DNA from: Agrobacterium tumefaciens
GTDB lineage: Bacteria; Pseudomonadota; Alphaproteobacteria; Rhizobiales; Rhizobiaceae
Direction: 5' to 3'
DNA: 64,000 bases
Assembly: GCF_013337285.1 (NCBI RefSeq)
Contig: NZ_SUPW01000003.1
Location: forward strand, 62,001 to 126,000
Shown here: piece after piece, positions 1 through 22,734 of the stretch
How the letters are laid out: each line of letters opens with the position of its first letter
Position numbering within the stretch: position 1 is the first letter of the stretch
Position numbers and translations under genes: made by a program
Notes under the pieces: generated by a model
Databases searched by the model: none
The model's input: only the letters and a program-made list of their open reading frames with translations
What the model was told of the DNA's origin: nothing

Positions 1-690
1 GGGTGAACCGGAATTGATGCGTATCTTCGGATCGGGGTGAAAACCGAACTCCGCCACCTGCACCGCACCCACAAGATTCGCAGCGGCGATGCCGGCGGTT
101 CCCTTGACGAAAATCGCATCGACCTCGCCACGCAACAGCGCGATGATCTCCTCGCCGAAGGATTGCCGACGCTTCAGGCCGAAAAGCGATGGCCCCTCCT
201 GCGAGGCCAGCACCGAATCCTTGATGACGATATCCGTCAGCTGGATATCCTCGACCTTCAGCCCTTCCAGCGAAAGCGCCGAGGTGATGCCCTTCAGCGC
301 CGTTGCCCGCATGAAATCGACGATGCCTTCCGGCCGGCGCGGCACGCCGAAACGGCGGCCGACGAGATCGGCAAGCAAGCGGATACCGGTTTCCGGCAGG
401 GTGATGATCGCCTGAAACTCATCCGTCCAGGTAATGCCGATAAGACGCGTATTACGCCCTTCGGAACGGGCGCGGATGGGCGGCACATTGCCGCCGTGGC
501 GGAAGGACCATTCCAGCGTGTGGTTGAAATGGCTTTGCCGCACGGAACGATCCGGCGAATCGATGATGGATTTCAGCGCGATGCCGACCTCCTCGAAGGT
601 CTGCCCGAGATAACCGAGCTGCGCCGCCAGCCCGACTGGCGTGGGCACCGGGCAGCGTGTGTACCAGATTTCAGAAAGTGTCGTGCTCAT
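1..690 (-). CDS. DszB-like desulfinase / NMT1-SsuA-fold protein (3' end beyond window)
   Basis: The visible part is 230 residues from the ATG at 690; the C-terminus lies outside the window. It has the two-lobed binding-protein fold family usually annotated as a nitrate/sulfonate ABC binding protein. However, it starts directly with MSTTLSEIWYTRCPVPTP and has no signal peptide, so it should be cytoplasmic. From memory, the N-terminus aligns with DszB (2'-hydroxybiphenyl-2-sulfinate desulfinase): CPVP with C13, SHF with H54, and R64 just before HGGNVPP, matching DszB C27, H60 and R70. A full-length paralogue lies at 18743-19810. It is followed 67 bp downstream of its start region by the binding-protein gene at 758-2365 on the same strand, so the two are probably co-transcribed. 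I infer a C-S cleaving enzyme, substrate unknown. Confidence 0.7.
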   Translation of the reverse strand, partial: MSTTLSEIWYTRCPVPTPVGLAAQLGYLGQTFEEVGIALKSIIDSPDRSVRQSHFNHTLEWSFRHGGNVPPIRARSEGRNTRLIGITWTDEFQAIITLPETGIRLLADLVGRRFGVPRRPEGIVDFMRATALKGITSALSLEGLKVEDIQLTDIVIKDSVLASQEGPSLFGLKRRQSFGEEIIALLRGEVDAIFVKGTAGIAAANLVGAVQVAEFGFHPDPKIRINSGSP

Positions 691-757
691 GGCTTTGGCC
701 TCGATGAAAGGGAAAAGTCCCGGCCCCCTGCAAAGCGGGCCGGGGCTGGCGAGACGA

Positions 758-2365
758 TCAGGATGCGGCGATATGCGCGAAGGCGAGGCTTCCCGCCACC
801 CCTTCGGCACCGATGGTGTGATCGGCGATGCGCTTGTTGTAGATGGTGATTTCAGGGGCGGCGACGATGTCGATGGCAGGCACATCCTCGACGAGGATCT
901 GCTGGATTTCCTTCCATTGCGCGACGCGCTTGTCGGGATCGATCTCGATGGCGGCGGCTTCGAGAAGCGCATCGACCTTGGGGTTGCTGTAGGCCGCACC
1001 ATTGGAGAATGGCACGCCCTTCTTGAAGTTCTTCGACCAATAAAGCCGCTGCACGCCGACGGTCGGGTCGAAGAGATTGCTCATGCCCTCATAGGCAAAA
1101 TCGAAATCGCGATCCGTGTAGATGCGCTTGGTATAGGTGGCGAAATCCTGGGTGCGCACCGTCACGTCAACACCGACCTTGGCCAGCGCCTGACGAATAT
1201 AGTCAGCACCGCGCGGATAGGCCTCGGTACTCGGCACATAATCGAGATTGAGCTTGAAACGGATGCCATCCGCACCGCGCTTGTATCCGGCCTCATCCAG
1301 CAGCGCTTCCGCCGTCTTCAGGTCGATCGGATATGTCTTCAGATCGTTGACATACCATTTCGCAAGCTTCGGATTGATCGGCCCTGTTATCGTCGCGCCA
1401 TAACCGAAATTGACCGTGTTGAAGATGATATTGCGGTCAATCACATGCGCGAAGGCGCGGCGCACCCGCACGTCCTTGAAGACGTCCTTTTCAAGGTTGA
1501 ATTCCACGCGGCTGATGGAGTTGGTATATTGATAACCGTTCGTCTCGAAGCCGAGGCTCGGCAGCTCCTTCAGGCGGTCGAGATCGCTATAGGCGACCGG
1601 CGTGCTGGGGGCGAGATCGATCTCTCCGGTTTCGATGGCAATCGCCCGGGCAGAAGCATCCGGAATGAAGCGAACAATCAGCTTGTCGAGATAGGGGCGC
1701 GGCGCATCCCAATAATCGGCATTGCGCTCAAAAACGATATGGCTGCCGCGCACCCACTCTTTGAACTTGAACGGGCCGGTGCCGATGGGGGCGAGATTGA
1801 CCGGGTTTTCGGTGACTTTCGTACCCTCGTAGAGATGTTTGGGCACGATGGGCGTTTCAGCTGCGGCAAGCGCCGTTATCAGGTAAGGTGCAGGCTTGGA
1901 AAGAACCAGAACCGCCGTCAACTCATCCGGCGTCTCGACGCTGGTGAGGTTCAGGAAGGTATTGCGGCCGCGCGGATGCACTTCCTTGATGGTGGAGATG
2001 GAAAACGCCACATCGGCGGATGTGAACGGCTTGCCGTCATGCCACGTCACACCGGGCCGCAGATTGAAGGTGTACCGCAGGCCATCTGAGCTCACATCCC
2101 AGGATTTGGCCAGAAGCGGCTTGGGATTGAGGTCGAAATCATAGGTCAGCAGCCCTTCGGTGACCTTGGGCGATATATAGACGGAATTATAGGCCGTGTG
2201 CGCAATGGTCGTCAGCACCGGCGGTTCCGACGCGATCAGCAGGGTGGCCGTGCCGCCGCTTGTCGGCTCCGCCGCGAAAAGCTTCAGCCCCGGCAATGAC
2301 ACGACGCCGAGCGCCACGGACGCCAGCAGAAACCCACGCCGCGTCGTCTGGTTGAAAACAGTCAT
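758..2365 (-). CDS. Peptide-type (SBP family 5) ABC substrate-binding protein, copy 1
   Basis: This 535-residue periplasmic binding protein belongs to the DppA/OppA family. The start at 2365 is chosen because AAGGAGAGGG lies just upstream and because the protein then begins with a twin-arginine-like leader (TTRRGFLLAS followed by a hydrophobic stretch and an AxA-like site). It shares two signatures with the binding proteins at 11341 and 13766: HPRGRxTF near residue 135 and FDPTxGVQRxYWS in the C-terminal lobe. These mark a subfamily that probably binds related ligands. It is divergent from the permease/ATPase operon at 2636 and likely feeds it. The family includes importers for peptides, opines, glutathione and sugars, so the ligand cannot be named from sequence; the neighbours suggest an organosulfur compound. 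Confidence 0.88.
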   Translation of the reverse strand: MTVFNQTTRRGFLLASVALGVVSLPGLKLFAAEPTSGGTATLLIASEPPVLTTIAHTAYNSVYISPKVTEGLLTYDFDLNPKPLLAKSWDVSSDGLRYTFNLRPGVTWHDGKPFTSADVAFSISTIKEVHPRGRNTFLNLTSVETPDELTAVLVLSKPAPYLITALAAAETPIVPKHLYEGTKVTENPVNLAPIGTGPFKFKEWVRGSHIVFERNADYWDAPRPYLDKLIVRFIPDASARAIAIETGEIDLAPSTPVAYSDLDRLKELPSLGFETNGYQYTNSISRVEFNLEKDVFKDVRVRRAFAHVIDRNIIFNTVNFGYGATITGPINPKLAKWYVNDLKTYPIDLKTAEALLDEAGYKRGADGIRFKLNLDYVPSTEAYPRGADYIRQALAKVGVDVTVRTQDFATYTKRIYTDRDFDFAYEGMSNLFDPTVGVQRLYWSKNFKKGVPFSNGAAYSNPKVDALLEAAAIEIDPDKRVAQWKEIQQILVEDVPAIDIVAAPEITIYNKRIADHTIGAEGVAGSLAFAHIAAS

Positions 2366-2635
2366 GCGATACCCTCTCCTTGATATTGCCGGCAAAAACC
2401 GGTGAAACTGAATGGCCACGTTTTGAAAGAAGTTTGTTTCATGACTAAGAGCGATATTGGCATGAAACACCAACAACGCTTTTAATTAGGAATTTTCTTT
2501 TTTATAACGTGTTATTTTCCGTTAATTTCAGAAAATAATTCTATTACTCTTTGACAAATTCCATAAAATTAGTCAACTAATACTCATGCCTTAGAGAGGC
2601 TGATTTATGTTTTGCAAGATTGTGGACTGGAGCCG

Positions 2636-3625
2636 ATGTCGAATTCGAAGAGGATTTTATCCCAGGCAAAGCGGGTAGCCATTCAGGCCATTCCGACGGT
2701 GCTGGGCATCGTCATCCTGAACTTCTTCCTGCTGCAACTGGCGCCGGGTGATGCGGCGGATGTGCTGGCGGCGGAAGCGGGTTCGGCAACCGTCGAGACC
2801 ATGGCCGAAATGCGCTCGCGCTTCGGACTGGACCTGCCGATCGTGCATCAGCTCATGAACTATCTCGGCAATCTGGCCCAGTTCAGCCTCGGATTTTCGC
2901 CGCGTTATGGCATGCCGGTCGCCGATCTCATCGGCCAGCGCCTGCCCGGCACGCTGGCCCTGATGGGAGCAGCACTTGCCATTGCGATTTTCGTCGGCGT
3001 GTTCCTGGGCTCGATCATGGCGCTTTTTTCCGGCAAGCTGCCGGACCGGATCATTTCCATCGGCTCGCTGATCTTTTATTCCGTGCCGGGTTTCTGGATC
3101 GGCCTGATGCTCATCCTCACCTTTTCGGTCAAGCTCGGCTGGCTGCCCTCAGGCGGTGACAGCACCATCGGCAGCAGCCTCACCGGTTTCGCCGCCTTTC
3201 TCGACAGGCTGCGCTATATCGTTCTGCCCGCCCTTTCGCTGGCGCTTTATTTTCTGGCGATCTATGCCCGCCTTACCCGTGCGGCGATGCTGGAGGTAAA
3301 ATCCCAGGACTATGTGCGCACGGCGCGCGCCAAGGGCGTTTCGCCGCTCCGGCTCACCACACGCCATATTCTGCGCAATGCGCTCATCCCCATCACGACA
3401 ATGGCCGGCATGCATATTGGCGGCCTGCTGGGCGGCGCGGTCGTGGTCGAGACCGTGTTCAGCTGGCCCGGCCTTGGCCGCCTCGCTTTCGAGGCCGTTA
3501 TGGCGCGTGATTTCAGTGTGCTGCTCGGCATCCTGCTTCTTTCTTCCCTCGTCGTCATCATCGTCAATGCAGCCGTGGACCTGTTGCAGGCATGGCTCGA
3601 TCCCCGCATCGGAGAAAGCCGATGA
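2636..3625 (+). CDS. ABC transporter permease, DppB/OppB type
   Basis: This inner-membrane permease has about six hydrophobic segments and the N-terminal region typical of DppB proteins, with LAPGDAAD after the first membrane helix. The cytoplasmic coupling loop is EVKSQDYVRTARAKG near residues 222-236, followed by LRNALIPI. I chose the ATG at 2636 because TGGAG precedes it; a TTG at 2612 would add eight residues. It opens a tightly packed operon: the stop overlaps the next ATG, and the order permease, permease, ATPase, ATPase is the standard dipeptide-importer layout. No binding protein is in the operon itself; three candidates lie divergently or nearby on the other strand. Confidence 0.9.
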   Translation: MSNSKRILSQAKRVAIQAIPTVLGIVILNFFLLQLAPGDAADVLAAEAGSATVETMAEMRSRFGLDLPIVHQLMNYLGNLAQFSLGFSPRYGMPVADLIGQRLPGTLALMGAALAIAIFVGVFLGSIMALFSGKLPDRIISIGSLIFYSVPGFWIGLMLILTFSVKLGWLPSGGDSTIGSSLTGFAAFLDRLRYIVLPALSLALYFLAIYARLTRAAMLEVKSQDYVRTARAKGVSPLRLTTRHILRNALIPITTMAGMHIGGLLGGAVVVETVFSWPGLGRLAFEAVMARDFSVLLGILLLSSLVVIIVNAAVDLLQAWLDPRIGESR

Positions 3626-4617
3626 ATTCCTCCCCCATCACTGCGGTTCTCGACACGGCCGAACTCGACGCTGAAGAGACCAATCCAAAACCGAAAAAGC
3701 CCGAGGAAAAGCTCTGGCCCTATATTCATGCGCCGGATGCGCTTTCCGCCCGCTCTGTCTCCGTGCCCCGGCGTGGCCTACGGCGGGAACTGAAAATCTT
3801 CCTGACCAACCCCAACGCCATCGTCGGGCTGCTGTTTCTCGCCACCGTCCTCATCGCCGCTCTCACAGCCCCGCTGATCTATCCCGGCGACCCGCTTGAA
3901 ATGGTCGCCCGTCCCTTCCTCTGGCCCGGCCAGAACCCGGCCTATCCGCTCGGCACCGATAGCATGGGCCGGGATGTTCTGGCTGGCATCGTGCACGGCG
4001 CACGTATCTCGCTGACTGTCGGTGTCGTGGCGACGCTGATCGGCCTGACCATCGGCATCTCGGTCGGCGCTTTTGCCGGTTATTTCGGCGGCATCATCGA
4101 TGATATCCTCGTCAAGCTGATCGAAATCTTCCAGACCTTGCCGAATTTCGTGCTGCTGGTCGTGCTCGTCGCCATCGCCCAGCCCTCGGTCACCACGGTC
4201 ACATCGGCCATCGGCATCATCACCTGGCCGCTCGTCGCCCGCCTCACCCGCGCCGAATTCCGCGCCATCCGCGAGAAGGACTATGTGCTGGCGGCTCGAA
4301 GCCTCGGTTATGGCCATGCGCGGATCGTCTTTCAGGAAATTCTGCCCAATGCGCTGCCGCCGATCATCGTCACCTCCTCCGTCATGGTGGCAGGCGCGAT
4401 CCTCATGGAAGCAGCACTGTCCTTCATGGGGTTGGGCGACCCCAACCGTGTTTCCTGGGGGTCGATGATCGGTTCGGGCCGCGATGTCATCCGCACCGCC
4501 TGGTATCTGACCGCCCTTCCCGGCCTTGCCATCGTCTTCACCGTCATTTCGCTGAACCTCATCAGCGATGGCCTCAACGATGCGCTCAACCCGCGTTTTT
4601 CGGAGGAACGCCGATGA
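3622..4617 (+). CDS. ABC transporter permease, DppC/OppC type
   Basis: The second membrane subunit has 331 residues and starts at 3622, where ATGA overlaps the upstream stop. A longer than usual hydrophilic N-terminus of about 60 residues, rich in Glu/Pro/Lys, precedes the first membrane helix (NPNAIVGLLFLATVLIAAL). The DppC hallmark PLGTDSMGRDVLAGIVHGAR follows, and the EAA-like coupling loop is REKDYVLAARSLGYG. It pairs with the preceding permease to form the channel. The long N-terminal extension is the only unusual point; it has no recognisable motif. Confidence 0.9.
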   Translation: MNSSPITAVLDTAELDAEETNPKPKKPEEKLWPYIHAPDALSARSVSVPRRGLRRELKIFLTNPNAIVGLLFLATVLIAALTAPLIYPGDPLEMVARPFLWPGQNPAYPLGTDSMGRDVLAGIVHGARISLTVGVVATLIGLTIGISVGAFAGYFGGIIDDILVKLIEIFQTLPNFVLLVVLVAIAQPSVTTVTSAIGIITWPLVARLTRAEFRAIREKDYVLAARSLGYGHARIVFQEILPNALPPIIVTSSVMVAGAILMEAALSFMGLGDPNRVSWGSMIGSGRDVIRTAWYLTALPGLAIVFTVISLNLISDGLNDALNPRFSEERR

Positions 4618-5589
4618 GCAAACTGATCGAAGTCCACGATCTCTCCGTCAGCTTCGGCGCGGCCCAGCCGGTCAAGGGCGTCAGCTTTGACGTACAATCC
4701 GGTGAAATGCTGGCCATCGTCGGCGAAAGCGGTTCGGGAAAATCGCTGACCGCACTCGGCCTTATCGGCCTGCTTCCCTCCCACGCCAAGATCGGCGGCC
4801 GGGTTCTGCTTGAAGGGCGCGATCTCCTGCCGCTGTCCGAACGGCAATGGCGCGGCATTCGCGGCCGGGATATCGGCATGATCTTTCAGGAACCGATGAC
4901 CTCGCTGAACCCCGTCCTGACCATTGGCGAACAGATCATCGAAGTGCTGCGCATCCATGAAAAAATCGACCGGCGTCAGGCCCGCAAACGCGCCATCGAG
5001 CTTTTGGACCTCGTCAATATTCCCGATGCCGGCCGCCGTGTGGATGACTATCCGCACCAGCTTTCCGGCGGCATGCGCCAGCGCGTCATGATCGCTATCG
5101 GCGTCGCCTGCAATCCGAAACTCCTGATCGCCGACGAAGCGACGACCGCGCTCGACGTGACGATACAGGCGCAGATCCTGCAACTGCTCGACAATCTGCG
5201 CCGCGATCTCAACATGGCCGTCATTCTCATCACCCACGATCTCGGCATCGTGGCGCAATGGGCGGACCGGGTGATGGTCATGTATGCTGGCCGCAAGGTG
5301 GAAGAGGGTCTGCCGGAACCGGTCTTCTCCAACCCGTACCACCCCTATACGCGCGGCCTGCTCGCCGCCTCCCCGCGCGCCGAAGACGGCCAGCATTATC
5401 GTGACGGGCCGCTCATCGAAATACCCGGATCCATCGTTTCCGCCACTGGGGAACGTGGCTGCGCCTTCCGGCCGCGCTGTCCGAGCGCCCGTGGTTTCTG
5501 CGGGCAATTCGTGCCGCCGCTGCGGCCGATTTCGGAAGGCCGCTACGCCGCCTGCCCCTTCGTATTCCCGACATCACAGGAGGTATCCG

Positions 5590-5612
<23 letters not shown>
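4614..5612 (+). CDS. ABC transporter ATP-binding protein, DppD/OppD type
   Basis: This 332-residue nucleotide-binding subunit has Walker A GESGSGKS at residues 37-44, Q-loop [10 protein letters not shown], signature LSGGMRQR, Walker [13 protein letters not shown] and the H-loop ITHDLG. The C-terminal oligopeptide-transporter extension carries the Cys-containing motif [15 protein letters not shown], which in this family can bind an iron-sulfur cluster. It overlaps the preceding gene by ATGA and the next one by 23 bp, so translational coupling is likely. It works with the DppF-type subunit at 5590 as the heterodimeric ATPase of the importer. Confidence 0.9.
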
Positions 5613-6525
<913 letters not shown>

Positions 6526-6544
6526 ACTTAAAGGAGCAACCATA

Positions 6545-7600
6545 ATGGTCGACTATCGCTATCTCGGACGCAGCGCGCTGAAAGTTTCACCGCTGAGCCT
6601 CGGCACCATGATGTTCGGAGGCCCGACACCGGATGACGTGGCCTTCCGCATCATCGACAAGGCGCGCGAACAGGGCATCAACTTCATCGATACCGCCGAC
6701 GTCTATCACGACGGTAAGTCGGAAGAAGTCGTCGGTCGCGGCATCAAGGCCACGCGCGATCATTGGGTTCTGGCGACGAAATTCGTCAATTCCCATACCA
6801 AGGGTCCCAATCTCGGCGGGCATTCGCGCAAATGGGTGATCGAGACCGTCGAGAATTCGCTGCGCCGTCTCAACACCGATTATATCGATATCCTCTATTT
6901 CCACCGCGCCGTCTTCGATGCGCCGCTGGAAGAGCCGTTGCGCGCCATTGCCGATCTCATCCGTGCCGGCAAGCTGCGTTATTTCGGCGTTTCGAACTTC
7001 CGTGGCTGGCGCATTGCCGAAATTGCGCATCTGGCCGACCAGCTCGGCATCGACCGACCGGTTGCCAGCCAGCCGCTCTACAACATCGTCAACCGCACGG
7101 CGGAAGCCGAGCAGCTGCCGGCGGCCAATCACTATGGCCTTGGCGTCGTATCCTACTCCCCGCTGGCGCGCGGTGTGCTGACCGGCAAATACCAGCCGGG
7201 CGAACAGCCGGGCGCCGACACGCGCGTCGGGCGTGGCGACAAGCGCGTTCTGGAAACAGAATGGCGTCCGGAATCTATTGAAATTGCCCAGAAGGTTGCG
7301 GCGCACGCCGCATCGAAGGGCGTTTCGGCAGCAGATTTCGCGCTCGCCTGGGTGCTGAACAACAAGTTCGTCACCGCCGCCATCACCGGCCCGCGCACTG
7401 AAGAGCACTGGAACGGCTATATCCGCGCCCTCGATGTGAAAATCGATGCCGAAGATGAAGCACTGGTCGACAGCCTTGTGACGACAGGCCATCCCTCGAC
7501 ACCCGGCTTCAACGATCCGAGCCATCCCGTCGAAGGCCGCGTGCCGCGTAATCTCGAGGCCGCACACCGCCCGGCGCTTAAGCCCCGCGCGGTCGCCTGA
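6545..7600 (+). CDS. Aldo/keto reductase
   Basis: This 351-residue TIM-barrel NADPH-dependent oxidoreductase has the AKR tetrad visible as D49 and Y54 (FIDTADVY), K79 (LATKF) and H120 (ILYFHR). Other family features are the N-terminal LGRSALKVSPLSLGT and the late SPLARGVLTGKYQPG. The start at 6545 follows AAAGGAGC; the upstream open frame shadows the ATPase. It sits between the importer genes and the DszC-like flavoprotein on the same strand, so it may reduce an aldehyde or ketone left after C-S cleavage. That role is inference; related enzymes act on many carbonyls. Confidence 0.88.
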   Translation: MVDYRYLGRSALKVSPLSLGTMMFGGPTPDDVAFRIIDKAREQGINFIDTADVYHDGKSEEVVGRGIKATRDHWVLATKFVNSHTKGPNLGGHSRKWVIETVENSLRRLNTDYIDILYFHRAVFDAPLEEPLRAIADLIRAGKLRYFGVSNFRGWRIAEIAHLADQLGIDRPVASQPLYNIVNRTAEAEQLPAANHYGLGVVSYSPLARGVLTGKYQPGEQPGADTRVGRGDKRVLETEWRPESIEIAQKVAAHAASKGVSAADFALAWVLNNKFVTAAITGPRTEEHWNGYIRALDVKIDAEDEALVDSLVTTGHPSTPGFNDPSHPVEGRVPRNLEAAHRPALKPRAVA

Positions 7601-7670
7601 TCGTCCAGACGAATATGCTTGCGGCGCAATTGTGTCGCAGGCCCTCACATCCGCTCACGGGAAAACCGCA

Positions 7671-8909: not shown

Positions 8910-8947
8910 CCATGCGGAAGATGGCAGGCGGCACAGGAGGAGCAGTA

Positions 8948-13765: not shown

Positions 13766-15355
13766 TCAATCGCTCTTCCAGGCCGTCGCCAGATCGCCAT
13801 AGGCAATGTCGATGGTCGTCACGAGAGACTTCAGGCTGGTGTTGCGCAGAATGACGGTCGGTAAAGCGACGATCGAGAAATTCGGCAGGTCGTCACCGGT
13901 GATTTTCTGAATGTCGTGGAATTGCGCCGCCCGTTTTGTCTCATCCACCTCGGTTGCGGCAGCGCGGAAACGATCGTCCACCTTGGGATTGTTATAGTGG
14001 GCGGCGTTGACATAAGGCGCCGGGTTCTTGATGCCGTCCGACCAGTAGAGACGCTGCACGCCCGCCGTCGGGTCAAAAAGCCGGCTGATGCCGTTCACCG
14101 TCAGGTCGAAACCGCGCTCGGTATAAACGCGCTTGATGAAGGTGGCGAGATCGCCTTCAACGATGTCCACCTTCACACCGAGCTTGCCGAAGGAGGAACG
14201 CAGATATTCAGCTGTTTTGCGGAAGACGTCGGATGGCAGGAAGGCCAGCCGCAACGAAAAACGGGTGCCATCCGCGCCTTTCGGGTAACCGGCCTTGTCC
14301 AGCAACTCGTTTGCCCTGGCGAGATCGAAGGGATAGGTGAAGGGCTTTTCATCATTATAGGCGGTGAAGACGGCCGGAATGTTTGAACCAGCTGGTTTGG
14401 CTGTTCCGAAGAAGATTGCATCGTTGATGAAATCGCGGTCGATGGCATGGGCCAGCGCCTGCCGGACCTCTTTTTTCGCAAGGATCGGGTTCTCCAGATT
14501 GAACTCGAAGATGGCGGCATTGTTGAGATAGGCGTCGGTATAGACCTCCACCGCAAGTTTCGGATTCTGCCGCAGGCGCTCCAGATCGCTGTAGGAAACA
14601 TCGGCTGTGTAATCCGCCTCGCCGGTTTCCACCGAAATGGTGGTGGAGGCCGCATCGGCAACAAAGCGCGCCACGAAACCGTCGAGATAGGGCAGATCGG
14701 CCTGCCAGTAATTCGGGTTCTTCTTGAGCTTCACATAGCTGCCGCGTTTCCATTCCTCGAAAACGAAGGGGCCGGTGCCGATGGGCGCATTGCCGTTCGG
14801 GCTTTCATTGTAGTTTTCCGAAGCATAGGCATGGGCCGGCAGGATGGGCGTTTCGCCGCCCGTCAGCGCCCGCAGAAGGTAGGGTGCGGGTTTGGAAAGC
14901 ACCACCACAGCCGTCAGCGGATCGGGTGTTTCGATATCGGCAATATTGGCAAAGGTGATGCGCCCGCGCGGGCCGACCTTCTTGAAGGCCAGCAGCGAGA
15001 ATTTCACATCCTGCGACGTGAAATCCTTGCCGTCATGCCATTTGACGCCCTTGCGCAGCCTGAAAGTGTGGCGCAGTCCGTCGGCCGATGTTTCCCAGTT
15101 TTCGGCCAGAACCGGATGCGGTTTGAACTCGCCGTCGAACCGCACCAACCCTTCGAGGATTTTCGTGGAAATGGCGCGGGTGCGCGTGTTGGAATCGGAA
15201 AGCGGCACCAGCGTCGTCGGCTCGCCAAGACCCGCAAGAGTGACGATCCCGCCCTTTTTCGGCGCCTCCGCCGCCACTGCCGGCAATGATGGCAACAGGA
15301 CAGCCCCGCTCAGCGCAGCGGCCAGAAGCAATGTCTTACGTCTTGTAATATCCAT
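13766..15355 (-). CDS. Peptide-type (SBP family 5) ABC substrate-binding protein, copy 3
   Basis: This 529-residue periplasmic binding protein begins MDITRRKTLLLAAALSGAVL and has an RR leader ending near AVAAEAP. The start at 15355 is preceded by GAGGAAA. It keeps the subfamily signatures GPRGRITF and FDPTAGVQRLYWSDG but is more divergent than copies 1 and 2. It is the last gene of a five-gene minus-strand operon with the DszB-like protein, NmrA-like protein, luciferase-like monooxygenase and M20 amidohydrolase. Its ligand is therefore probably the substrate of those enzymes, perhaps an N-acylated or amide-linked sulfur compound. It lacks its own permease. Confidence 0.88.
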   Translation of the reverse strand: MDITRRKTLLLAAALSGAVLLPSLPAVAAEAPKKGGIVTLAGLGEPTTLVPLSDSNTRTRAISTKILEGLVRFDGEFKPHPVLAENWETSADGLRHTFRLRKGVKWHDGKDFTSQDVKFSLLAFKKVGPRGRITFANIADIETPDPLTAVVVLSKPAPYLLRALTGGETPILPAHAYASENYNESPNGNAPIGTGPFVFEEWKRGSYVKLKKNPNYWQADLPYLDGFVARFVADAASTTISVETGEADYTADVSYSDLERLRQNPKLAVEVYTDAYLNNAAIFEFNLENPILAKKEVRQALAHAIDRDFINDAIFFGTAKPAGSNIPAVFTAYNDEKPFTYPFDLARANELLDKAGYPKGADGTRFSLRLAFLPSDVFRKTAEYLRSSFGKLGVKVDIVEGDLATFIKRVYTERGFDLTVNGISRLFDPTAGVQRLYWSDGIKNPAPYVNAAHYNNPKVDDRFRAAATEVDETKRAAQFHDIQKITGDDLPNFSIVALPTVILRNTSLKSLVTTIDIAYGDLATAWKSD

Positions 15356-15389
15356 GGATGTTTCCTCTTGCAGACTCGTTTTCAAATTT

Positions 15390-16589
15390 TCAGACAGCCT
15401 TCAGCCGGGTTTCCACCAGCCGGGCAAACAGGGTGGCCCCAACCGGAAGAATGGCGTCGTCAACGATGAAACCGGGATTGTGGGCCGGCAGGGTGCCGGA
15501 ATGGCCAAGGGTGAAAAACGCGCCGGGCGCGTGTTTCAGGAGATCGGCGAAATCCTCGCTGCCCATGAAGCGGCCCGGTTCGGTGGAAACGCGCTCATCC
15601 CCGAGCACCTCGCGCGCCACGCCGGCAACGATGTCCACCGAAGCGTTGTCATTGGTCAAAACCGAGAATATGTCGCGAATATCCACCTCGGCAGTCAGGC
15701 CGTAAGCCGCGGCGATGTGATCCGAGATGGTGCGGATGCGGCCCCGAATGGTTTCGCGCACGCTGTCGGAGAAGGCCCGCACGGTTCCGGCAATCGAGGC
15801 CGTTTCGGGAATGACGTTATAGGCCGATCCCGCCTCGATGCGGGTGATCGACAGCACGGCGGGATCGGTGGGCGGTATGTTGCGGCTGACGATGGTCTGC
15901 AAGGCCTGAATGAGTTCCCCCGTGGCCGGCACCGGATCGCGCGCGACATCCGGATGGGCCGCATGCGCGCCCCTGCCCTTCAGCCGGATATCGAAGAAAT
16001 CCGCACCCGCCAGAATGGTGCCGGGCGAAACCTTGAGATGATTGGGGGCTGCATGGGAGGAATTGTGCAGCCCGTAAATCTCGTCAACGGGAAAATCTCT
16101 AAACAGCCCATCGGCGATCATGGCGCGCGCGCCGCCGAGACCCTCCTCGGCCGGCTGGAAAATGAAGACGACCGTGCCGGCGAAATCACGGGTTTCCGCC
16201 AGATAACGGGCGGTGCCGAGCAGGATGGTGGTGTGCACATCATGCCCGCAGCCGTGGAATTTGCCGGGATAGATTGACGCGTAAGGCAGGCCGGTTTCCT
16301 CCGGCATCGGCAGGGCGTCCATATCGGCCCTGAGCCCGATGGAGCGATTGCCCGCGTGGCGGCCGCGCAGCACACCGACCACGCCGGTCTTGCCACAACC
16401 ACGATGCACCTCGATGCCCCAGGAAGCGAGCTTTTCAGCGACGATGCCTGATGTGCGCACCTCCTCGAAACCGATTTCCGGGTGCTGGTGCAGATCGTGG
16501 CGGATGGAGACGAGTTCGGGAACATAGGTCCCGATCCGCTCCAGAATTTTCGGTGCTGATGTTTTGACGGGATCGGCGGCAATATTCAC
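15390..16589 (-). CDS. M20-family metallo-amidohydrolase (hippurate hydrolase-like)
   Basis: This 399-residue zinc peptidase-family enzyme has the metal-binding residues visible as C114, H116 and H119 in GCGHDVHTT, E148/E149 in FQPAEEG, and a late GSEDFADL. Its lid-domain signature GRGAHAAHPDVARDP is that of N-acyl-amino-acid deacylases such as hippurate hydrolase and IAA-amino acid hydrolases. It is cytoplasmic, with no leader. In Bacillus the ytm/yxe sulfur operons combine such a deacylase with a luciferase-like monooxygenase to degrade N-acetylated S-alkylcysteines. The same pairing here, one gene apart, suggests a comparable deacylation step. Confidence 0.88.
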   Translation of the reverse strand: MNIAADPVKTSAPKILERIGTYVPELVSIRHDLHQHPEIGFEEVRTSGIVAEKLASWGIEVHRGCGKTGVVGVLRGRHAGNRSIGLRADMDALPMPEETGLPYASIYPGKFHGCGHDVHTTILLGTARYLAETRDFAGTVVFIFQPAEEGLGGARAMIADGLFRDFPVDEIYGLHNSSHAAPNHLKVSPGTILAGADFFDIRLKGRGAHAAHPDVARDPVPATGELIQALQTIVSRNIPPTDPAVLSITRIEAGSAYNVIPETASIAGTVRAFSDSVRETIRGRIRTISDHIAAAYGLTAEVDIRDIFSVLTNDNASVDIVAGVAREVLGDERVSTEPGRFMGSEDFADLLKHAPGAFFTLGHSGTLPAHNPGFIVDDAILPVGATLFARLVETRLKAV

Positions 16590-16681: not shown

Positions 16682-17851
16682 TCAGAGCCTCAGACCCGCC
16701 TCCTTCATCAACGGCAGAATGCGCTCGCCGAAATAATCAAGGTCTTCGCGGAAATCGTAGAAATTCAGCTGCACGCCATCGATGCCGGCCTTTTTCAGGC
16801 CGACAAGCTGCTCGACCACCTGTTCCGGCGAACCGATGATTTCGATATTGCCGCCGAGATTGCGCCCCTGTTTATGGCGCGCATCGCCGCGACCACGCCA
16901 GGCATGGGCGTCGCTGTCGTAATTATTGGTGGCGAAGGCGCGGGTGCCGGACTGCGGTTTTCCCGCCTCGATGGCATCGGCATAGGCAAAGGCCTCCCTC
17001 TCCGTGTCGCGGCTGACGATGATCGGATTGATGAGCGTCTTCGCCTGCCGGCCATAGGCCTTGGCGCGATTCTTGATGGTGGCGACATGATCGGGAAGCG
17101 TTTCCAGCGCGCTGTCTATATGCGATCCACCGGGTGAGGTGACGAAGACCAGATCGGAATGGCGGGCGGCGAAATCGATGCCTGCCGGCGACCCCGTCGC
17201 GGTGACCAACGGCGGGCGGCCAAAGGCGGGTTTCGGCGTTATCCAGCCATTATTGATCGCCCACGGATTGAGCTTACCCTCATAGGAGAAGTTTTCGGTT
17301 TCGCCCCACAGCCGGTGAAGCACATCGAACAATTCGCCCGCCATGTCGTAGCGCTTGTCGTGGTCGATGCGCTGCCAGCCGAACATTTCATGTTCAATGG
17401 CGCGGTGGCCGGTGACGATGTTGATGCCCCAGCGTCCTTTGGCGATATGATCCAGCGTCGCACCATATTTGGCGAGATGCAGCGGATGGAGAGGCCCGTA
17501 AAGCACATGGATGGTGGAGATCAGCAGAATGCTCTTGGTCACCGCTGCCATGGCGCCAAGCGCGATGAAACTGTCGAGCGAGGATTCGCCGTCATAACCG
17601 CCCTTGGGCAGCCATTGCGTGCGGCTGAAGGCGATCTCGAAACCAAGCTCTTCCGCCCGCTTCACCAGTTCGACATTGTAATCGAACGTCCAGCTGTTGC
17701 TGGTCGGCAGGCTGGAGAAATTGATGTCCTGCAGATTGAGGAACAAGCCCAGCATCAGCGGCTGTTTTACCGCCCGGCTGAGCGGGCTGTCTTCGAAATC
17801 GGCCGGACCTTTCAGTTCGTGGCCATCTTGCAATGGGGCAGTCAGCGCCAT
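16682..17851 (-). CDS. Luciferase-like FMNH2-dependent monooxygenase (SsuD/SfnG-like)
   Basis: This 389-residue enzyme of the alkanesulfonate/dimethylsulfone monooxygenase type contains FDYNVELVKRAEELGFE, the GRWGINIVTGHRAIEHEMFG strand-loop, HDKRYDMAGELFDVL and the C-terminal EDLDYFGERILPLMKEAG. These resemble SfnG and SsuD, which release sulfite or sulfinate from sulfones and sulfonates. The start overlaps the stop of the NmrA-like gene by 10 bp, showing coupling. A gap of 92 bp separates it from the amidohydrolase. The exact substrate is not deducible; the enzyme needs reduced flavin from a partner not found in the window. Confidence 0.85.
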   Translation of the reverse strand: MALTAPLQDGHELKGPADFEDSPLSRAVKQPLMLGLFLNLQDINFSSLPTSNSWTFDYNVELVKRAEELGFEIAFSRTQWLPKGGYDGESSLDSFIALGAMAAVTKSILLISTIHVLYGPLHPLHLAKYGATLDHIAKGRWGINIVTGHRAIEHEMFGWQRIDHDKRYDMAGELFDVLHRLWGETENFSYEGKLNPWAINNGWITPKPAFGRPPLVTATGSPAGIDFAARHSDLVFVTSPGGSHIDSALETLPDHVATIKNRAKAYGRQAKTLINPIIVSRDTEREAFAYADAIEAGKPQSGTRAFATNNYDSDAHAWRGRGDARHKQGRNLGGNIEIIGSPEQVVEQLVGLKKAGIDGVQLNFYDFREDLDYFGERILPLMKEAGLRL

Positions 17852-18735
17852 GTCTTTTCTCCCTCGGAATGATCGCCCTGCGGGGTGGGCGCAGCCAGCC
17901 GTGCGCGCAGATAACCTTCCACCCCACGGGGCAAGCGACCGGTAATCTGGTGAATATTATCGTTGACGGAAGCGGCGAGACCTTCGCGGATGAGCTGGCC
18001 GAATTCGCCTATCGCTTTCTGTTCGAACGCGCCGATATGGGGCGGAAAGGCCGGGACGTTGTGCGATACTCCGACCGGACGATGCAGGATACGAGCAGCG
18101 ATGCGGGCAATTTCCAGCGCCGTCAGCGCTTCGCCACCGGTGATCACCAGGGGGCCGGCAAGCGGTGCGCTGGCGGTCAGCGCATCAACAGCCACATCGG
18201 CAATATCATCGGCATCGATGAAGGAGACAGCCGCATTGCCGAAACGGGCGGGCACATCCTCTCCCCTGCGCAGCGCGACAACAACGGGCTCCAGCGCCAC
18301 CTGCATCCAGGCATTTGGCCGCAACACCGTGTGCGCGATGCCGCTCCCGGCCAGATGCGCTTCCACCTGCGCATGGGCCGCACCCGAGATGGAGCGCGCG
18401 GCGTGCTTAACGGTCCAGTCGGAGCCGGATATTTTCACGATCCGCGACACGCCGGCAAAGAGAGCCGCATCGATGACTGCATTCTGGTCTGTCGCCAGCG
18501 TTTCACCGATGGGCGAAAGCAGGAAGACCGTTTCTATGCCACGCAAGGCATTGTTCAGGCTGGCCGGATCAGAGAAGTTTCCTTCTGCAATATCCACCCT
18601 GTCGCCCCAGAGCTGGAGCGCTTCCTCACGCCGGCGGGTCAGCGCCCGTGCCTTCACCTGCTTTTGCAAAAGACGGCTGACGACACGTTGGCCCAGCTTG
18701 CCGGTTGCGCCGGTGACAAGAATGGTGGCTGTCAT
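17842..18735 (-). CDS. NmrA-like NAD(P)-binding protein / quinone reductase-like
   Basis: The 297-residue protein starts MTATILVTGATGKLGQRVVS, an N-terminal Rossmann GxTGxxG motif of the atypical short-chain dehydrogenase (NmrA/QOR2) group. Further segments are KISGSDW and VVALRRGEDVPARFGNAAVSFIDADDIADV. The start at 18735 follows GAGGGT; the longer frame to 18816 overlaps the upstream gene and is not preferred. It lies 7 bp after the DszB-like gene and overlaps the monooxygenase gene. It might reduce an oxidised product or supply reducing equivalents, but no catalytic role can be assigned. Confidence 0.83.
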   Translation of the reverse strand: MTATILVTGATGKLGQRVVSRLLQKQVKARALTRRREEALQLWGDRVDIAEGNFSDPASLNNALRGIETVFLLSPIGETLATDQNAVIDAALFAGVSRIVKISGSDWTVKHAARSISGAAHAQVEAHLAGSGIAHTVLRPNAWMQVALEPVVVALRRGEDVPARFGNAAVSFIDADDIADVAVDALTASAPLAGPLVITGGEALTALEIARIAARILHRPVGVSHNVPAFPPHIGAFEQKAIGEFGQLIREGLAASVNDNIHQITGRLPRGVEGYLRARLAAPTPQGDHSEGEKTWR

Positions 18736-18742
18736 GGCACCC

Positions 18743-19810
18743 TCACTTTCCCGCACGGCGTTGCGCAGCACCTTGCAATAAAGAGAGGGCGCGTGGATCG
18801 GCCCACTCCCGCACATCGAAATCGTCAGGGATGAATTTCCATTCCAGCAAGAAATCCTTGAAGTGGCTCAGCGCATCCAGCTCGGCCGGGTCAAGATCGA
18901 GCTGGAGATTGCGATACACATCCGCACCATTGGCGGCCAGAACCGCCTCCTCGCTGACGCCGATCTCGCGGGCGATGAAACGCACGGCTTCCGCCGGATT
19001 TTCATTCGCCCATTGGGCAACCCGCTGCACGGTGGCCACCAGTTCCGCCACCAGATCGGGCCGCTCGTCGGCAAAGGTGGCATCCACGGTCAAAGGGCGC
19101 GGCGTGCCATTGTTGATGCGGATTTTCGGATCAGGATGAAACCCCGTCGATACGACGACCTGCGCGCCGATGAGATTGGCGACGGTGACGCCTTCCGCAC
19201 CCTTCACGAAAAACGCATCGATATGGCCGCGGTGCAGTGCTGCGATTTCCTCGCCATAGGGAAGCCGTCGGCGCAGACCGTGGAACCTCTCATCCGTCGG
19301 CCCAAGCAGCACCGGTTCCCTTGCCGTCAGATCGATCAGCTCGACATCCGCAACAGAGAGGCCGGAAACGGTCAATGCCGAGACGATGCCCTTCAGGGAC
19401 GTCGCGCGCTGAAAATCGATGGTTTCGTTCGGTCGTTTCGGCAGGCCGACGCGCCGCCCCTTCAAATCTCCGCCCTTGCTAATTCCACTTGCCGGCAAGG
19501 CGATGACGGCCTGAAATTCGTCGGTTCTCGTCAGCCCTACCAGCCGCGTTTTCCGGCCACCGGATTTCGCCCAGATGGGGGGAATATTGCCGCCCTGACG
19601 GAAAGACCAGTCAAGCCGGTGATCGAAATGGCTCTGGCGGATGGCCGGATCAGCCGCATCGCGAATGGAGGAAACAGAGATGCCATGGCCGGCGAAACGT
19701 TCCTCGATCCAGCCAAGCTGCACCGCGATGGAAAGCGGCGTTGGCGCCGGGCAGCGTGTGTACCACAACGTCACGGGTTGGGTTGCTTGGCGAAGGGCGG
19801 CATCAGCCAT
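18743..19810 (-). CDS. DszB-like desulfinase (NMT1/SsuA-fold, no signal peptide)
   Basis: The protein has 355 residues, close to DszB length (about 365). It begins MADAALRQATQPVTLWYTRCPAPTP with no export signal, unlike a periplasmic binding protein. C20 in RCPAP, H61 in QSHFDH, R71 in SFRQGGNIPP and the GG pair align with the Cys27/His60/Arg70 set of DszB as I recall it. It is the first gene of a minus-strand operon with NmrA-like, monooxygenase, amidohydrolase and binding-protein genes. Its paralogue opens the window at 690. I infer hydrolysis of a sulfinate to sulfite; a cytoplasmic binding role cannot be excluded. Confidence 0.75.
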   Translation of the reverse strand: MADAALRQATQPVTLWYTRCPAPTPLSIAVQLGWIEERFAGHGISVSSIRDAADPAIRQSHFDHRLDWSFRQGGNIPPIWAKSGGRKTRLVGLTRTDEFQAVIALPASGISKGGDLKGRRVGLPKRPNETIDFQRATSLKGIVSALTVSGLSVADVELIDLTAREPVLLGPTDERFHGLRRRLPYGEEIAALHRGHIDAFFVKGAEGVTVANLIGAQVVVSTGFHPDPKIRINNGTPRPLTVDATFADERPDLVAELVATVQRVAQWANENPAEAVRFIAREIGVSEEAVLAANGADVYRNLQLDLDPAELDALSHFKDFLLEWKFIPDDFDVREWADPRALSLLQGAAQRRAGK

Positions 19811-20169
19811 GGCGTTCGTCCTCGAAATTGCGATCTGGACAGCACGCTACACGCCGCAGGATATTTTCTATAGATAAAGTGTACTATTTAGGGGGGCGTT
19901 AAGGAAATTCGTTTCCATATCGCGACCGTTCCGGAGGGAAGACAGAATATCCTTTCGATAACAGGAGCATTTTCGGTGAAATAATCGTCCGCGCCTCGAC
20001 CACCTCCCCCTTCAACTGCGGGCCGGATACGACGGCCCGCGAAAGTTTTTCTTCTCCGAGCGGCAAGGATTTTTAACTCGCGACCGCAACCCCGGCTGTT
20101 ACGCTTCCCGGCAATTGCACCGGCCGCAGGCCGGAAATCCAACACGGGCTGAAAAGAAAAAGTAAAAAC
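19811..20169. other. Divergent intergenic region between DszB-like operon and DszA-like gene 2
   Basis: This 359-bp stretch separates two divergent transcripts and so should contain both promoters. An AT-rich patch at 19858-19890 (TTTCTATAGATAAAGTG and TACTATTTAG) is the only obvious candidate for -10 elements. The reverse-strand open frame across 19888-20505 has no protein features. No clear operator was found. Confidence 0.5.
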
Positions 20170-21477
20170 ATGAGCAAGACCAAACGCCGGCTCAATCTCA
20201 ATGTCGGCATCAACACGACAGGATATCTTCCCAATGCCTGGAAATATCGCAGCGGCGACCGGCACGATATCAATGATATCGGCTATTATCGGCGGCTGAC
20301 GGAGCTGGCGCATAAAGGCCGGTTCGATGCCGTTTTCCTGTCCGATCATCCGGCATTGCTGACCGACCCGGCCAGCCGCCCGTTTCATACCATCGATCCG
20401 CTCATTCTCTCCACATCGCTTGCCGCGCAGGTGCCGGATATAGGTTTCGTGGCGACGGTTTCCTCCACCTATAATTCTCCCTATAATTTTGCGAGACGAA
20501 CGCAATCCATCGACGTCGTCACCGGCGGTCGGTTGATCGTCAACATCGTCTCTAACTTCAACCCCAGTGTCGCCGCCAATTTCGGTAACGACCCGCTGCC
20601 GCCGCGCAGCGAACGTTATGCCAAGGCCACCGAATTTCTCGATGTCGCGAAGAAACTCTGGTCAAGCTGGGACCCCCGCCGCGAAGGCGAGGTACCGGAA
20701 GACCGCTTCTGGGATGCGACGACCGCCGAGACGATCGATCATGAGGGGGCGTTCTTCCATGTCAAAGGCCCGCTCAACGTGCCGCGCGGGCCACAGGGAC
20801 ATCCCGTCATCGCCCAGGCTGGCGCTTCCGAAGGCGGCATCGATCTGGCGGCGCGCCACGGCGAGATCATTTATTGCAATATCCTGTCCCGACCGGCAGG
20901 TCAGGCCTTCGGTAAAAAGGTCCGCGACCGCGCCGTCTCTTTCGGCCGCGATCCCTCCGGCATCCGCATCGTGCCCGGCCTCGTCGTCATTCTCGGCGAG
21001 ACCCGTGACGAGGCGCTTCGCAAACACGAACTTTACAGCGGAACCGGCTCGGAAGACGGTCTTCTGGCACGCTTCGCAAGGGAAAACGGCATTGATCCGC
21101 GCGATTTCGATCCCGACGTAAAACTCGATGGCGAGCGCTTTATTCCCGACCAGAACCGGCAATGGGCAGTTGGTATGGGGCTTGGCCTTTCCGAGTTATT
21201 GACCCATGAAAAGCTCACCGCCCGTGAGGCCGTAAGGCGCTCGGAAGGACACCACCGGCTGCTGCTCGGCACGCCGGAAGAGGTGGCGGACGGCATTATC
21301 GACCTGTGGCAGGATGGCACGGTGGATGGCTACACCTTGCAGCCGCCGCGCGCACCGGACGATATTGCCGAATTCGTGGAAAAGGTCGTGCCGGTTCTGC
21401 AGGATCGCGGCGTTTACCCGCGCGAATACGAAGGTGCGACGATCCGCGACCGCTATGGTCTGCCCTATCCCGATTGA
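20170..21477 (+). CDS. DszA/NtaA/SnaA-family FMN-dependent monooxygenase 2
   Basis: This 435-residue luciferase-like enzyme belongs to the same branch as the gene at 9936 but is clearly distinct from it. Segments are LNVGINTTGYLPNAWKY, FLSDHPAL, FVATVSSTYNSPYNFARR, GGRLIVNIVSNF, PVIAQAGASEGG and a C-terminal REYEGATIRDRYGLP that both copies share. It stands alone on the plus strand, divergent from the DszB-like operon, and may share that control region. Members oxidise C-S or C-N bonds with FMNH2 and O2. With the first copy it gives the island two sulfone-monooxygenase-type activities. Confidence 0.87.
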   Translation: MSKTKRRLNLNVGINTTGYLPNAWKYRSGDRHDINDIGYYRRLTELAHKGRFDAVFLSDHPALLTDPASRPFHTIDPLILSTSLAAQVPDIGFVATVSSTYNSPYNFARRTQSIDVVTGGRLIVNIVSNFNPSVAANFGNDPLPPRSERYAKATEFLDVAKKLWSSWDPRREGEVPEDRFWDATTAETIDHEGAFFHVKGPLNVPRGPQGHPVIAQAGASEGGIDLAARHGEIIYCNILSRPAGQAFGKKVRDRAVSFGRDPSGIRIVPGLVVILGETRDEALRKHELYSGTGSEDGLLARFARENGIDPRDFDPDVKLDGERFIPDQNRQWAVGMGLGLSELLTHEKLTAREAVRRSEGHHRLLLGTPEEVADGIIDLWQDGTVDGYTLQPPRAPDDIAEFVEKVVPVLQDRGVYPREYEGATIRDRYGLPYPD

Positions 21478-21564
21478 ACGGCAGATGCGGCGCTGTTGAA
21501 GCGCCGCAGGTCCATCTCCAGCCGTCTCCCGCTGCAAGCGGGAGTGGCTGATGTCAGGGACATA

Positions 21565-22734
21565 TTATTGCCCCGCCGCCACTTTCAAAACGGCCTGCCC
21601 GCCGAAAAACTGCGGTACGACGGACGCGAAATCCGTGACGATCTGGCGATAATCTTCCGGCTGGAACTCATAGGGCAATTCCAGACGGAATTCCGTGACA
21701 TGCGGCAGCACGGGGTCGTGCGACAGCTTTTCCAGAATCTCCTCAGTCGTGCCAACGATATCGGGCAGGAAAAGTGTGCGGCGCGCACCATGCGGTGTGG
21801 TCGTGCGCTTGTCGCGCTCGGCAACAAATTCCGCATAACGGCGGCGTGTCGCGGGGCTTGCGCTATCGGTCGGCAGGATCACCCGTCCTAGCGCGACACG
21901 CGGCTGGCGCTCATGCGCCCATTCCTGCCGGAAGCGGGCAACGAGAGCCGCCTGCGCGGTCAGAAAATCATCGGTATTTTCACCGCTGACGATGTTGCCG
22001 GTCAGAAGATTGAAGCCTGCCTTGCCAGCCCAGCGTGCGGAATTCTGCGATCCGCCGCCATACCACAACCTGTCGGTCAAACCCCTGGCCAAGGGCCGAA
22101 GGCGCGGCACCTGCGCACCGGCGGCATTCCCAGCCTCCGTCTCGCTGGACAAAGGCTCCGATCTCAAGGCTCTGGCCAGCTTCTCGGCGCGGGCATGGCT
22201 GTAATCCGCATCAGGAGCCGCATCGACGTAGTCCGAAATCAGATGGGCAAAGGGCGGCGCGCCCACGGAAACGCCGACATTCAGCCGCCCGCGTGACAGG
22301 ATATCCACCGTGGCGAGATCTTCGGCCAGCCGGAACGGGTTTTCATAACCCAGTTGGATAACGGCGGTGCCAAGGCCGATCCGCTTGGTGCGCTGTGACG
22401 CCGCCGCGAGAAAGGTGGCCGCCGAGGATACGCCGCGTTCCAGATGGCGCTGACGCACCCAGGCGCTGTGATACCCCAGCGCCTCCCCGCCTTCTAAAAG
22501 CTGCAGCGTTTCCTCCAACCCCTGTGCGGGATCATCATCGTTATAATTGCCGGGAACCAGAAAGGCGAAATGGGAAATATGGGAAAGGGGCATAGTGTGC
22601 GTCCGGGAATAGTTGCTGAAGAAGATGGGCTCGGGCGGCATTGCTGCGGCCGTTCTTGCCCGCCGCGTATATTCAGCAGAATGCCCGATAACGGGCGCGG
22701 CTGGCACGGCATGGTCTTTTATAGTCCCGGTCAT
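21565..22734 (-). CDS. Luciferase-like flavin-dependent monooxygenase
   Basis: This bacterial luciferase-family TIM barrel has FAFLVPGNYNDDDPAQGLEE, YHSAWVRQRH, RIGLGTAVIQLGYENPFRLAEDLATVD and RGRLNVGVSVG. It is closer to the luciferase/LLM F420-FMN group than to the DszA branch. The longest frame starts at 22734; a start at 22593 (MPLSHISHFAF) fits the usual family N-terminus better, but neither has a strong ribosome site. It is the last member of the oxygenase-rich island and is divergent from the enolase-superfamily gene at 23015. The substrate is unknown. Confidence 0.83.
   Translation of the reverse strand: MTGTIKDHAVPAAPVIGHSAEYTRRARTAAAMPPEPIFFSNYSRTHTMPLSHISHFAFLVPGNYNDDDPAQGLEETLQLLEGGEALGYHSAWVRQRHLERGVSSAATFLAAASQRTKRIGLGTAVIQLGYENPFRLAEDLATVDILSRGRLNVGVSVGAPPFAHLISDYVDAAPDADYSHARAEKLARALRSEPLSSETEAGNAAGAQVPRLRPLARGLTDRLWYGGGSQNSARWAGKAGFNLLTGNIVSGENTDDFLTAQAALVARFRQEWAHERQPRVALGRVILPTDSASPATRRRYAEFVAERDKRTTTPHGARRTLFLPDIVGTTEEILEKLSHDPVLPHVTEFRLELPYEFQPEDYRQIVTDFASVVPQFFGGQAVLKVAAGQ

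Follow-up and report, generated by a model that had tools for sequence, protein, structure and literature searches.

What are two relatives of DszB, a desulfinase best known from fuel-desulfurizing microbes and studied mainly as a slow step of fuel desulfurization, doing in Agrobacterium tumefaciens, in an island of oxygenases with an importer of its own? The DNA that raises this question (the window) is a stretch of 64,000 nt, C13:62001-126000, in a genome of 5.0 Mb, and the island takes up window positions 1-22,734. A first-pass annotation had placed relatives of DszA, DszB and DszC, further luciferase-like oxygenases, an M20 amidohydrolase, an aldo-keto reductase, an NmrA-like reductase and a peptide-type importer in this one 22-kb stretch, and we found domain matches for each of these classes there. 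We consider it fairly probable that this is a sulfur-scavenging island built round two desulfinases, in which polar organosulfur compounds are taken up, flavin-dependent enzymes cleave a C-S bond to give a sulfinate, and desulfination releases sulfite. The island is best described as a variation on the logic of the 4S pathway of dibenzothiophene desulfurization, with two desulfinases and an importer, and is larger than first reported: the window edge cuts it, and another ~17 kb of it lie to the left, reaching as far as roughly 45 kb on the contig. This left part, in a stretch of the same contig that we call L010, holds a second DszC-like flavoprotein, a flavin reductase, a rhodanese, a sulfur transporter and a CmoJ-type cysteine-salvage cluster. 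Of the 17 Bac_luciferase matches in the genome, seven fall within 34 kb (expected 0.11; binomial 1e-11), a clustering that exceeds chance.

Two predicted desulfinases

Both DszB-like proteins, here DszB1 and DszB2, are predicted to be sulfinate desulfinases of the DszB family, with DszB as nearest solved relative by sequence, its catalytic residues and its fold. A PDB search with DszB1 matched only DszB (E 3e-12), as did a search with a 30-sequence profile (E 5e-21). In a fold search with an AlphaFold model of the desulfinase (mean predicted local distance difference test score, pLDDT, of 83), the top three matches were DszB chains (TM 0.69-0.73, root-mean-square deviation about 5 Å), with SsuA next. 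The DszB active site, given in passages of PMC12168087 as Cys27, His60, Arg70 and Gly73, aligns with Cys20, His61, Arg71 and a Gly73-Gly74 pair in the island. All of the aligned proteins (14/14 and 30/30) carry the catalytic Cys, His and Arg, and among 101 homologs (the window's two and 99 taken from 80 loci) the Cys is kept in 99, the His in 99 and the Arg in 100, the exceptions being a fragment of 206 residues (L047) and a more divergent protein (L046). The 80 loci, which serve throughout, are the top-ranking ones among 208 found and reach up to 10 kb to either side; some pairs share one genome.

The N-termini are short. An ATG stands no more than 20 residues before the WYxRCP motif in 88 of 96 homologs, and 61 of the 96 have no in-frame start of any kind further out, so that hardly any space, if any, is left for a signal peptide. 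Judged from these start-codon positions, the DszB-type proteins are predicted to be cytoplasmic. Database names point elsewhere: both proteins match the NMT1 domain of binding proteins in Pfam, and of the 120 best relatives the majority of those with a name are listed as substrate-binding proteins, while a few go by desulfinase, desulfurase or dibenzothiophene desulfurization enzyme. Agrobacterium is the source of the closest named DszB relatives. The earlier count of two DszB-like proteins stands in that both are of the DszB type with active sites kept, although one of them, DszB2, is truncated at the window edge, with 690 nt inside.

Conserved gene order and co-occurrence

On the evidence of a tree of 98 homologs (three dropped; midpoint root, for drawing only), DszB1 and DszB2 are two old, deep sister paralogs, 36 sequences falling in the DszB1 clade and 62 in the DszB2 clade, each clade with support of 100/100. 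Sixteen of the 80 loci, including some of Devosia, Ensifer, Neorhizobium, Chelatococcus and others, hold both paralogs. In 16/16 of these the order on one strand is DszB2, an acyl-CoA-dehydrogenase-like gene (ACAD), DszB1, and in 16/16 the oxygenase gene NtaA2 lies downstream (in L056 after two other genes); NmrA is present in 12/16. NtaA2 at 70% identity or more is near 33/35 DszB1-type loci, versus 4/45 DszB2-only loci. The importer permease BPDb is near 15/16 both-paralog and 39/45 DszB2-only loci, and the binding protein SBP5a near 43/45 DszB2-only, 7/16 both-paralog and 2/19 DszB1-only loci. Across all 80 loci, the aldo-keto reductase is near 50, the DUF3088 protein near 19, and the luciferase-fold oxygenase of the 21565-22734 type near 11. 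Comamonas, Variovorax and relatives (15 loci) have their own version, with SBP5a in 15, the SfnG-like gene in 14, NmrA in 13, BPDb in 11, ACAD in 8, the aldo-keto reductase in 5 and NtaA2 in 0. The search for the same neighbourhood that the first-pass annotation had proposed was rewarded: the gene set recurs beside DszB relatives in other genera, such islands occurring in many bacteria of soil and plants, and the conserved synteny with nitrogen or carbon pathways that it had named as a possible refutation was not found.

Within the genus, 26 of 39 genomes carry one or more DszB relatives that are near full length and share 50% identity or more (G011 has only a fragment). The aldo-keto reductase and the BPDb permease, each at 94% or more, occur in exactly these 26 genomes and are missing from the remaining 13. 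One such perfect overlap would have a chance probability of 1.2e-10 for independent genomes, which related genomes are not. In 23 of the 26 genomes each paralog gives one match of nearly full length; the exceptions are G005 (DszB2 in two pieces), G021 (a DszB2 fragment) and G013 (no DszB1). The two pieces in G005 adjoin (C4:496133-497142), and DszB2 may be broken there. Among 62 sampled genomes from outside the genus, seven carry an aldo-keto reductase (48-61%) and two a permease (56-58%), and none of these has this DszB, with weak matches at E above 1e-6 only. The sampled genomes thus show the link within the genus, and in other genera it rests on the 80 loci.

Oxygenases, importer and CmoJ-type cluster

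The Dsz names hold for the two desulfinases and, by family scores, only loosely for the remaining oxygenases, since the DszA, DszC/SfnB and SfnG homologs lie outside or below the curated families. For example, the two proteins first described as DszA-family monooxygenases, NtaA1 and NtaA2, do belong to the NtaA/DmoA subfamily (TIGR03860, 587.9 and 376.5 bits; cut-off 279.7), but their best-scoring solved relatives are YtnJ for NtaA1 (358 bits; BdsA 320) and EmoA for NtaA2 (309 bits; BdsA 193), not DszA/BdsA. As YtnJ and EmoA outscore BdsA, we rejected an identity as DszA, the dibenzothiophene sulfone monooxygenase. The YtnJ/CmoJ homolog of L010 has 644 bits with 3sdo (a solved “nitrilotriacetate monooxygenase”), 560 with YtnJ and 257 with BdsA. 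The single DszC/SfnB-like flavoprotein of the window (7632-8909) is present as a homolog, but below the curated scores for SfnB (TIGR04022, 294.6 of 430.9 bits) and DszC (124.7 of 850). Both additional luciferase-like oxygenases were also found, the one at 16682-17851 reaching 186.1 of 382.95 bits with the SfnG model TIGR04021, short of membership. The ACAD beside DszB2 has 178 bits with other acyl-CoA-dehydrogenase-like proteins and 61 bits with DszC.

The M20, aldo-keto reductase and NmrA-like genes are each in place, and so is the importer, an ATP-binding cassette (ABC) system of the Opp/Dpp type with two permeases, two oligo_HPY ATPases and a family-5 binding protein. The stretch has three family-5 binding proteins (SBP5a, SBP5b and SBP5c); the PDB neighbours of SBP5a are too mixed for a substrate to be read from it. 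A model of the DUF3088 protein matches omega-class glutathione transferases and thioredoxins weakly (best E 1.3e-3).

Left of the window, at L010:1950-12291 (C13:44950-55291), lies a CmoO/CmoJ-like cluster with a cystine-type importer, GNAT, M20, YtnJ homolog, MsnO8-type oxygenase, Rrf2 regulator (L010:10268-10753) and flavin reductase. The parts that would make up CmoO/CmoJ salvage adjoin here, namely a putative acetyltransferase (GNAT), the MsnO8-type oxygenase, the YtnJ/CmoJ homolog, a deacylase and an importer, and matches within the cluster reach 330.2 bits with TIGR03558 (166.95 needed) and 350.7 with TIGR01891 (153.75 needed), beside the YtnJ match given above.

A candidate operator

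A palindrome near TATTTTCTRTAGAAAATA is common to three island promoters. It stands before the rhodanese gene with 0 mismatches (L010:15195), between the serine hydrolase and SsuD-like genes with two (L010:16158), and 51 bp before DszB1 with three (window 19862). Allowing up to three mismatches, the whole genome has five sites, three of them in the island, and a reversed control pattern has one. At up to one mismatch in the genus, 11 of the 12 sites listed lie within 3.6 kb of DszB2, and TATTTTCTATAGGAATKA was found at two Rhizobium loci. The shared palindrome hints at co-regulation of the three island promoters. An Rrf2 gene is near 11/80 loci, and our guess is that the Rrf2 protein binds the palindrome.

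A genome-wide sulfur regulon was also considered, but the two non-island sites, one in a gap beside a polyphosphate kinase 2 (PPK2)-type gene and one inside a long reading frame, lend it no support. The first of these is a three-mismatch copy at L115:1501-1518 (C14:352642), where no sulfur link was seen.

Proposed function and rival explanations

The DszB-type active sites, the island's own importer and the sulfur-gene neighbours (rhodanese, sulfur transporter, CmoJ-type cluster) are consistent with the organosulfur-release island first proposed. In our scheme, the peptide-type ABC importer would take up a polar organosulfur compound, whose sulfur would be oxidised by the SfnB/DszC-like enzymes of the acyl-CoA-dehydrogenase fold and then by the SfnG-like and NtaA/EmoA-like luciferase-fold enzymes. 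With reduced flavin supplied by the island-encoded reductase, the oxygenases would split one C-S bond to give a sulfinate and a carbonyl. The desulfinases, via Cys20/His61/Arg71, would strip the sulfur from the sulfinate as sulfite for cysteine synthesis, and the aldo-keto reductase, perhaps the NmrA-like protein too, would deal with the carbonyl or with other by-products. The M20 hydrolase of the Agrobacterium-type island may remove an acyl group, as in N-acylcysteine salvage. The sequences themselves show the gene content, the catalytic residues, the fold, the short N-termini, the two paralog clades, the conserved order and the co-occurrence; from these we infer the reaction order, the substrate class, sulfite as the product and control by sulfur supply.

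The chemistry of DszB is best suited to sulfinates that are aryl or conjugated in some other way. From this chemistry, the M20 hydrolase, the GsiB-like binding protein, the CPxC-bearing DUF3088 protein and the CmoJ-type cluster, we speculate that the substrate is a thioether conjugate of the cysteine or glutathione kind. A bolder version, in which we place rather little confidence, is that a 4S-like pathway is widespread among plant-associated bacteria and would desulfurize aromatic or heteroaromatic S-conjugates after their import; these would be of the glutathione, cysteine or N-acylcysteine type, like those into which plants turn foreign compounds. The two desulfinases of this pathway would be non-redundant, with an ACAD/SfnG-type arm feeding DszB2 and an NtaA/EmoA-type arm feeding DszB1.

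Several observations weigh against the sulfur-scavenging scheme. Identity to DszB is only 23-24% in the fold alignment, and the oxygenases score below the SfnB, DszC and SfnG cut-offs, so that their reactions are guessed. A gene for a sulfite dehydrogenase that stands next to the module in Sinorhizobium meliloti fits the scheme, but it occurs in 0/80 other loci, which rules it out as a general neighbour. The palindrome pattern was picked once the promoters had been read, so that its chance figure of 5e-6 overstates the case, and at up to three mismatches it is also present in 12/13 genus genomes without the island. It is very unlikely, in our view, that the “DszB-like” proteins are instead SsuA/NMT1 sulfonate-type binding proteins, and the island a set of organosulfur transporters and oxygenases. 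They do share the fold family and the NMT1 Pfam domain, SsuA came second in the fold search, and most database names agree. However, the SsuA family model TIGR01728 gives them 78.3 and 68.1 bits where 163.5 are needed, SsuA is absent from the PDB sequence matches of DszB1 and of the profile at E 0.001, and the adjoining importer is Opp-type with family-5 binding proteins of its own. Given the kept catalytic residues, the low family score and the short N-termini, we discarded the reading as an SsuA-type binding protein.

Catabolism of an aminopolycarboxylate, like ethylenediaminetetraacetate (EDTA) or nitrilotriacetate (NTA), or of another nitrogen or carbon source, by an EmoA/NtaA-type oxygenase with a peptide-type importer also seems to us highly improbable. 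NtaA2 is indeed nearest to EDTA monooxygenase (309 bits), EmoA is paired with a peptide-type importer in EDTA clusters, and to the left of the island there is a DAO-family oxidase (L009:17553-18878), but desulfinase active sites and sulfur neighbours would have no role there, and NtaA2 accompanies DszB1 in 33/35 loci. Another reading makes the island a composite of separate sulfur modules under shared regulation, not serving one substrate: S-alkylcysteine salvage (NtaA1, M20, CmoJ-type), sulfone or sulfonate use (SfnG- and SsuD-like) and the DszB module. We hold this to be unlikely, though it deserves some weight, with 45/80 loci having DszB2 but no DszB1 within 10 kb, M20 near 15/19 loci with DszB1 alone and near none of the remaining 61, and the DszB genes 37-59 kb apart in two genomes and on different contigs in three. 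The single order DszB2-ACAD-DszB1 in 16/16 loci and the presence of all three parts tested in one and the same set of genomes speak against it; these counter-points concern the core module, and a composite around that core is compatible with them. If the sulfur-scavenging reading is true, many ABC transporter binding-protein annotations in agrobacteria, rhizobia, Devosia and Comamonadaceae would be corrected, and there would be a pointer to a natural substrate class for desulfinases, with the new enzymes being of interest for biocatalysis.

Features of the window and its surroundings

Table 1. Features of the island within the window (window positions unless marked L010).
Feature	Position	Strand	Evidence
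DszB2, DszB-family desulfinase (predicted), cut by window edge	1..690, whole gene L010:18659-19690	-	54% identity to DszB1
SBP5a, family-5 solute-binding protein	758..2365, longest reading frame to 2476	-	PF00496 307 bits
BPDb, Opp-type permease	2612..3625	+	domain match; co-occurrence with DszB
BPDc, Opp-type permease	3592..4617	+	PF00528 and OppC_N
ABCd, Opp-type ATPase	4614..5612	+	ABC_tran and oligo_HPY
ABCf, Opp-type ATPase	5590..6525, start picked by eye in open reading frame 5284-6525	+	ABC_tran and oligo_HPY
Aldo-keto reductase	6545..7600	+	PF00248
SfnB/DszC-like flavoprotein, acyl-CoA dehydrogenase fold	7632..8909	+	TIGR04022 294.6 bits (below cut-off)
LysR-type regulator	8912..9919	+	domain match
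NtaA1, NtaA/DmoA-family oxygenase, nearest YtnJ	9936..11288	-	TIGR03860 587.9 bits
SBP5b, family-5 solute-binding protein	11341..12936	-	domain match
DUF3088 protein, invariant CPxC, thioredoxin/glutathione transferase-like model	12976..13365	-	weak fold match
SBP5c, family-5 solute-binding protein	13766..15385	-	best NCBIfam model GsiB, below cut-off
M20 amidohydrolase	15390..16589	-	TIGR01891 415.2 bits, 153.75 needed
SfnG-like luciferase-fold oxygenase	16682..17851	-	TIGR04021 186.1 bits, 382.95 needed
NmrA-like NAD(P)-binding protein	17842..18735	-	PF05368
DszB1, DszB-family desulfinase (predicted), Cys20/His61/Arg71	18743..19810	-	DszB match and catalytic residues
Palindrome copy, candidate operator	19862..19879		common to two promoters left of window
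NtaA2, NtaA/DmoA-family oxygenase, nearest EmoA	20170..21477	+	TIGR03860 376.5 bits
Further luciferase-fold oxygenase	21565..22734	-	TIGR04027-like, below cut-off

The L010 genes are the ACAD, which overlaps DszB2, an SsuD-like oxygenase, a serine hydrolase, the rhodanese, a Sulf_transp-type transporter, the flavin reductase, a short acyl-CoA-dehydrogenase-like protein, the Rrf2 regulator, the MsnO8-type oxygenase, the YtnJ/CmoJ homolog, M20, GNAT, a fused permease-ATPase and a family-3 binding protein. Scanned for Rfam families and for tRNAs, the window gave no matches. To the right of the island, window 23015-30580 holds an MR_MLE (enolase superfamily) protein, a GDSL hydrolase and a second peptide-type importer; this set adjoins the island in 9/21 genus loci and in no other group sampled, and is probably a separate system. 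At 31754-33974, a protein with BLH_phosphatase and metallo-beta-lactamase domains is followed by a Sulf_transp protein, a pair which we take to resemble bacterial sulfide-response loci.

Comparison with known systems

The dsz operon has the order dszA-dszB-dszC and one desulfinase. The island shares with it and with the 4S pathway the three fold classes, the DszB active site, and luciferase-fold and acyl-CoA-dehydrogenase-fold flavoenzymes with a flavin reductase. However, it has two DszB paralogs, another order, its own peptide-type importer and an aldo-keto reductase; its DszA-like proteins are nearer YtnJ and EmoA, and identity to DszB is ~23%. The claim that this is not the classic dibenzothiophene operon is borne out, as gene order, number of desulfinases and nearest relatives all differ and rule that operon out.

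The yxe and ytm operons of B. subtilis serve S-alkylcysteine salvage of the CmoO/CmoJ type. Passages of PMC10863075 describe CmoO and CmoJ in such salvage in soil bacteria. NtaA1 and the L010 homolog are YtnJ/CmoJ-like, with M20 hydrolases, an acetyltransferase and an MsnO8-type oxygenase nearby, but that pathway, as described in those passages, has no desulfinase, and the importer of the DszB module here is Opp-type. Dimethylsulfone use by SfnG and SfnB in Pseudomonas (passages of PMC11852219) is alike in its SfnG-like and SfnB-like flavoenzymes, whereas the island homologs fall below the curated cut-offs, and SfnG chemistry as known has no need for DszB. By their description in the same passages, the bds genes of Gordonia terrae C-6 are also alike, with a desulfinase, two flavin oxygenases and low similarity to dsz. 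A sulfolane-degrading Rhodoferax, in passages of PMC6395730, has a DszA homolog and lacks DszB.

A counterpart by position is on pSymA of Sinorhizobium meliloti 1021 (L111). There, five genes for the importer and the aldo-keto reductase make up one run, divergent from a run counted at seven: DszB2, a shorter ACAD, DszB1, NmrA, a protein binding flavin adenine dinucleotide (FAD), a second protein binding nicotinamide adenine dinucleotide (NAD), and NtaA2. No M20, SfnG-like or LysR gene was seen at this locus, in which it differs from the island. The FAD_binding_3 monooxygenase-like protein and the second NAD-binding protein (L111:17564-19483) lie inside the DszB operon; such a pair is also in DszB operons of Devosia, Neorhizobium and Chelatococcus and is absent from the window, with relatives of the former in 15/80 loci and of the latter in 17/80. 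The next gene encodes a SorA/SorT-like sulfite dehydrogenase, below curated cut-offs and by position SMa2103, which a passage of PMC3511301 describes as an enzyme that oxidises sulfite and whose gene goes up with taurine. Matched by position, the island module corresponds to SMa2077-SMa2101. The operons SMa2077-SMa2085 and SMa2087-SMa2101 are described without a sulfur role in passages of PMC5940162, and titles, abstract starts and some passages of the open-licence literature gave no function for these desulfinases or for SMa2077-SMa2101. As reporter fusions to sma2085 and sma2087 are published (PMC5940162, same passages), function and regulation are directly accessible in this S. meliloti counterpart of the island.

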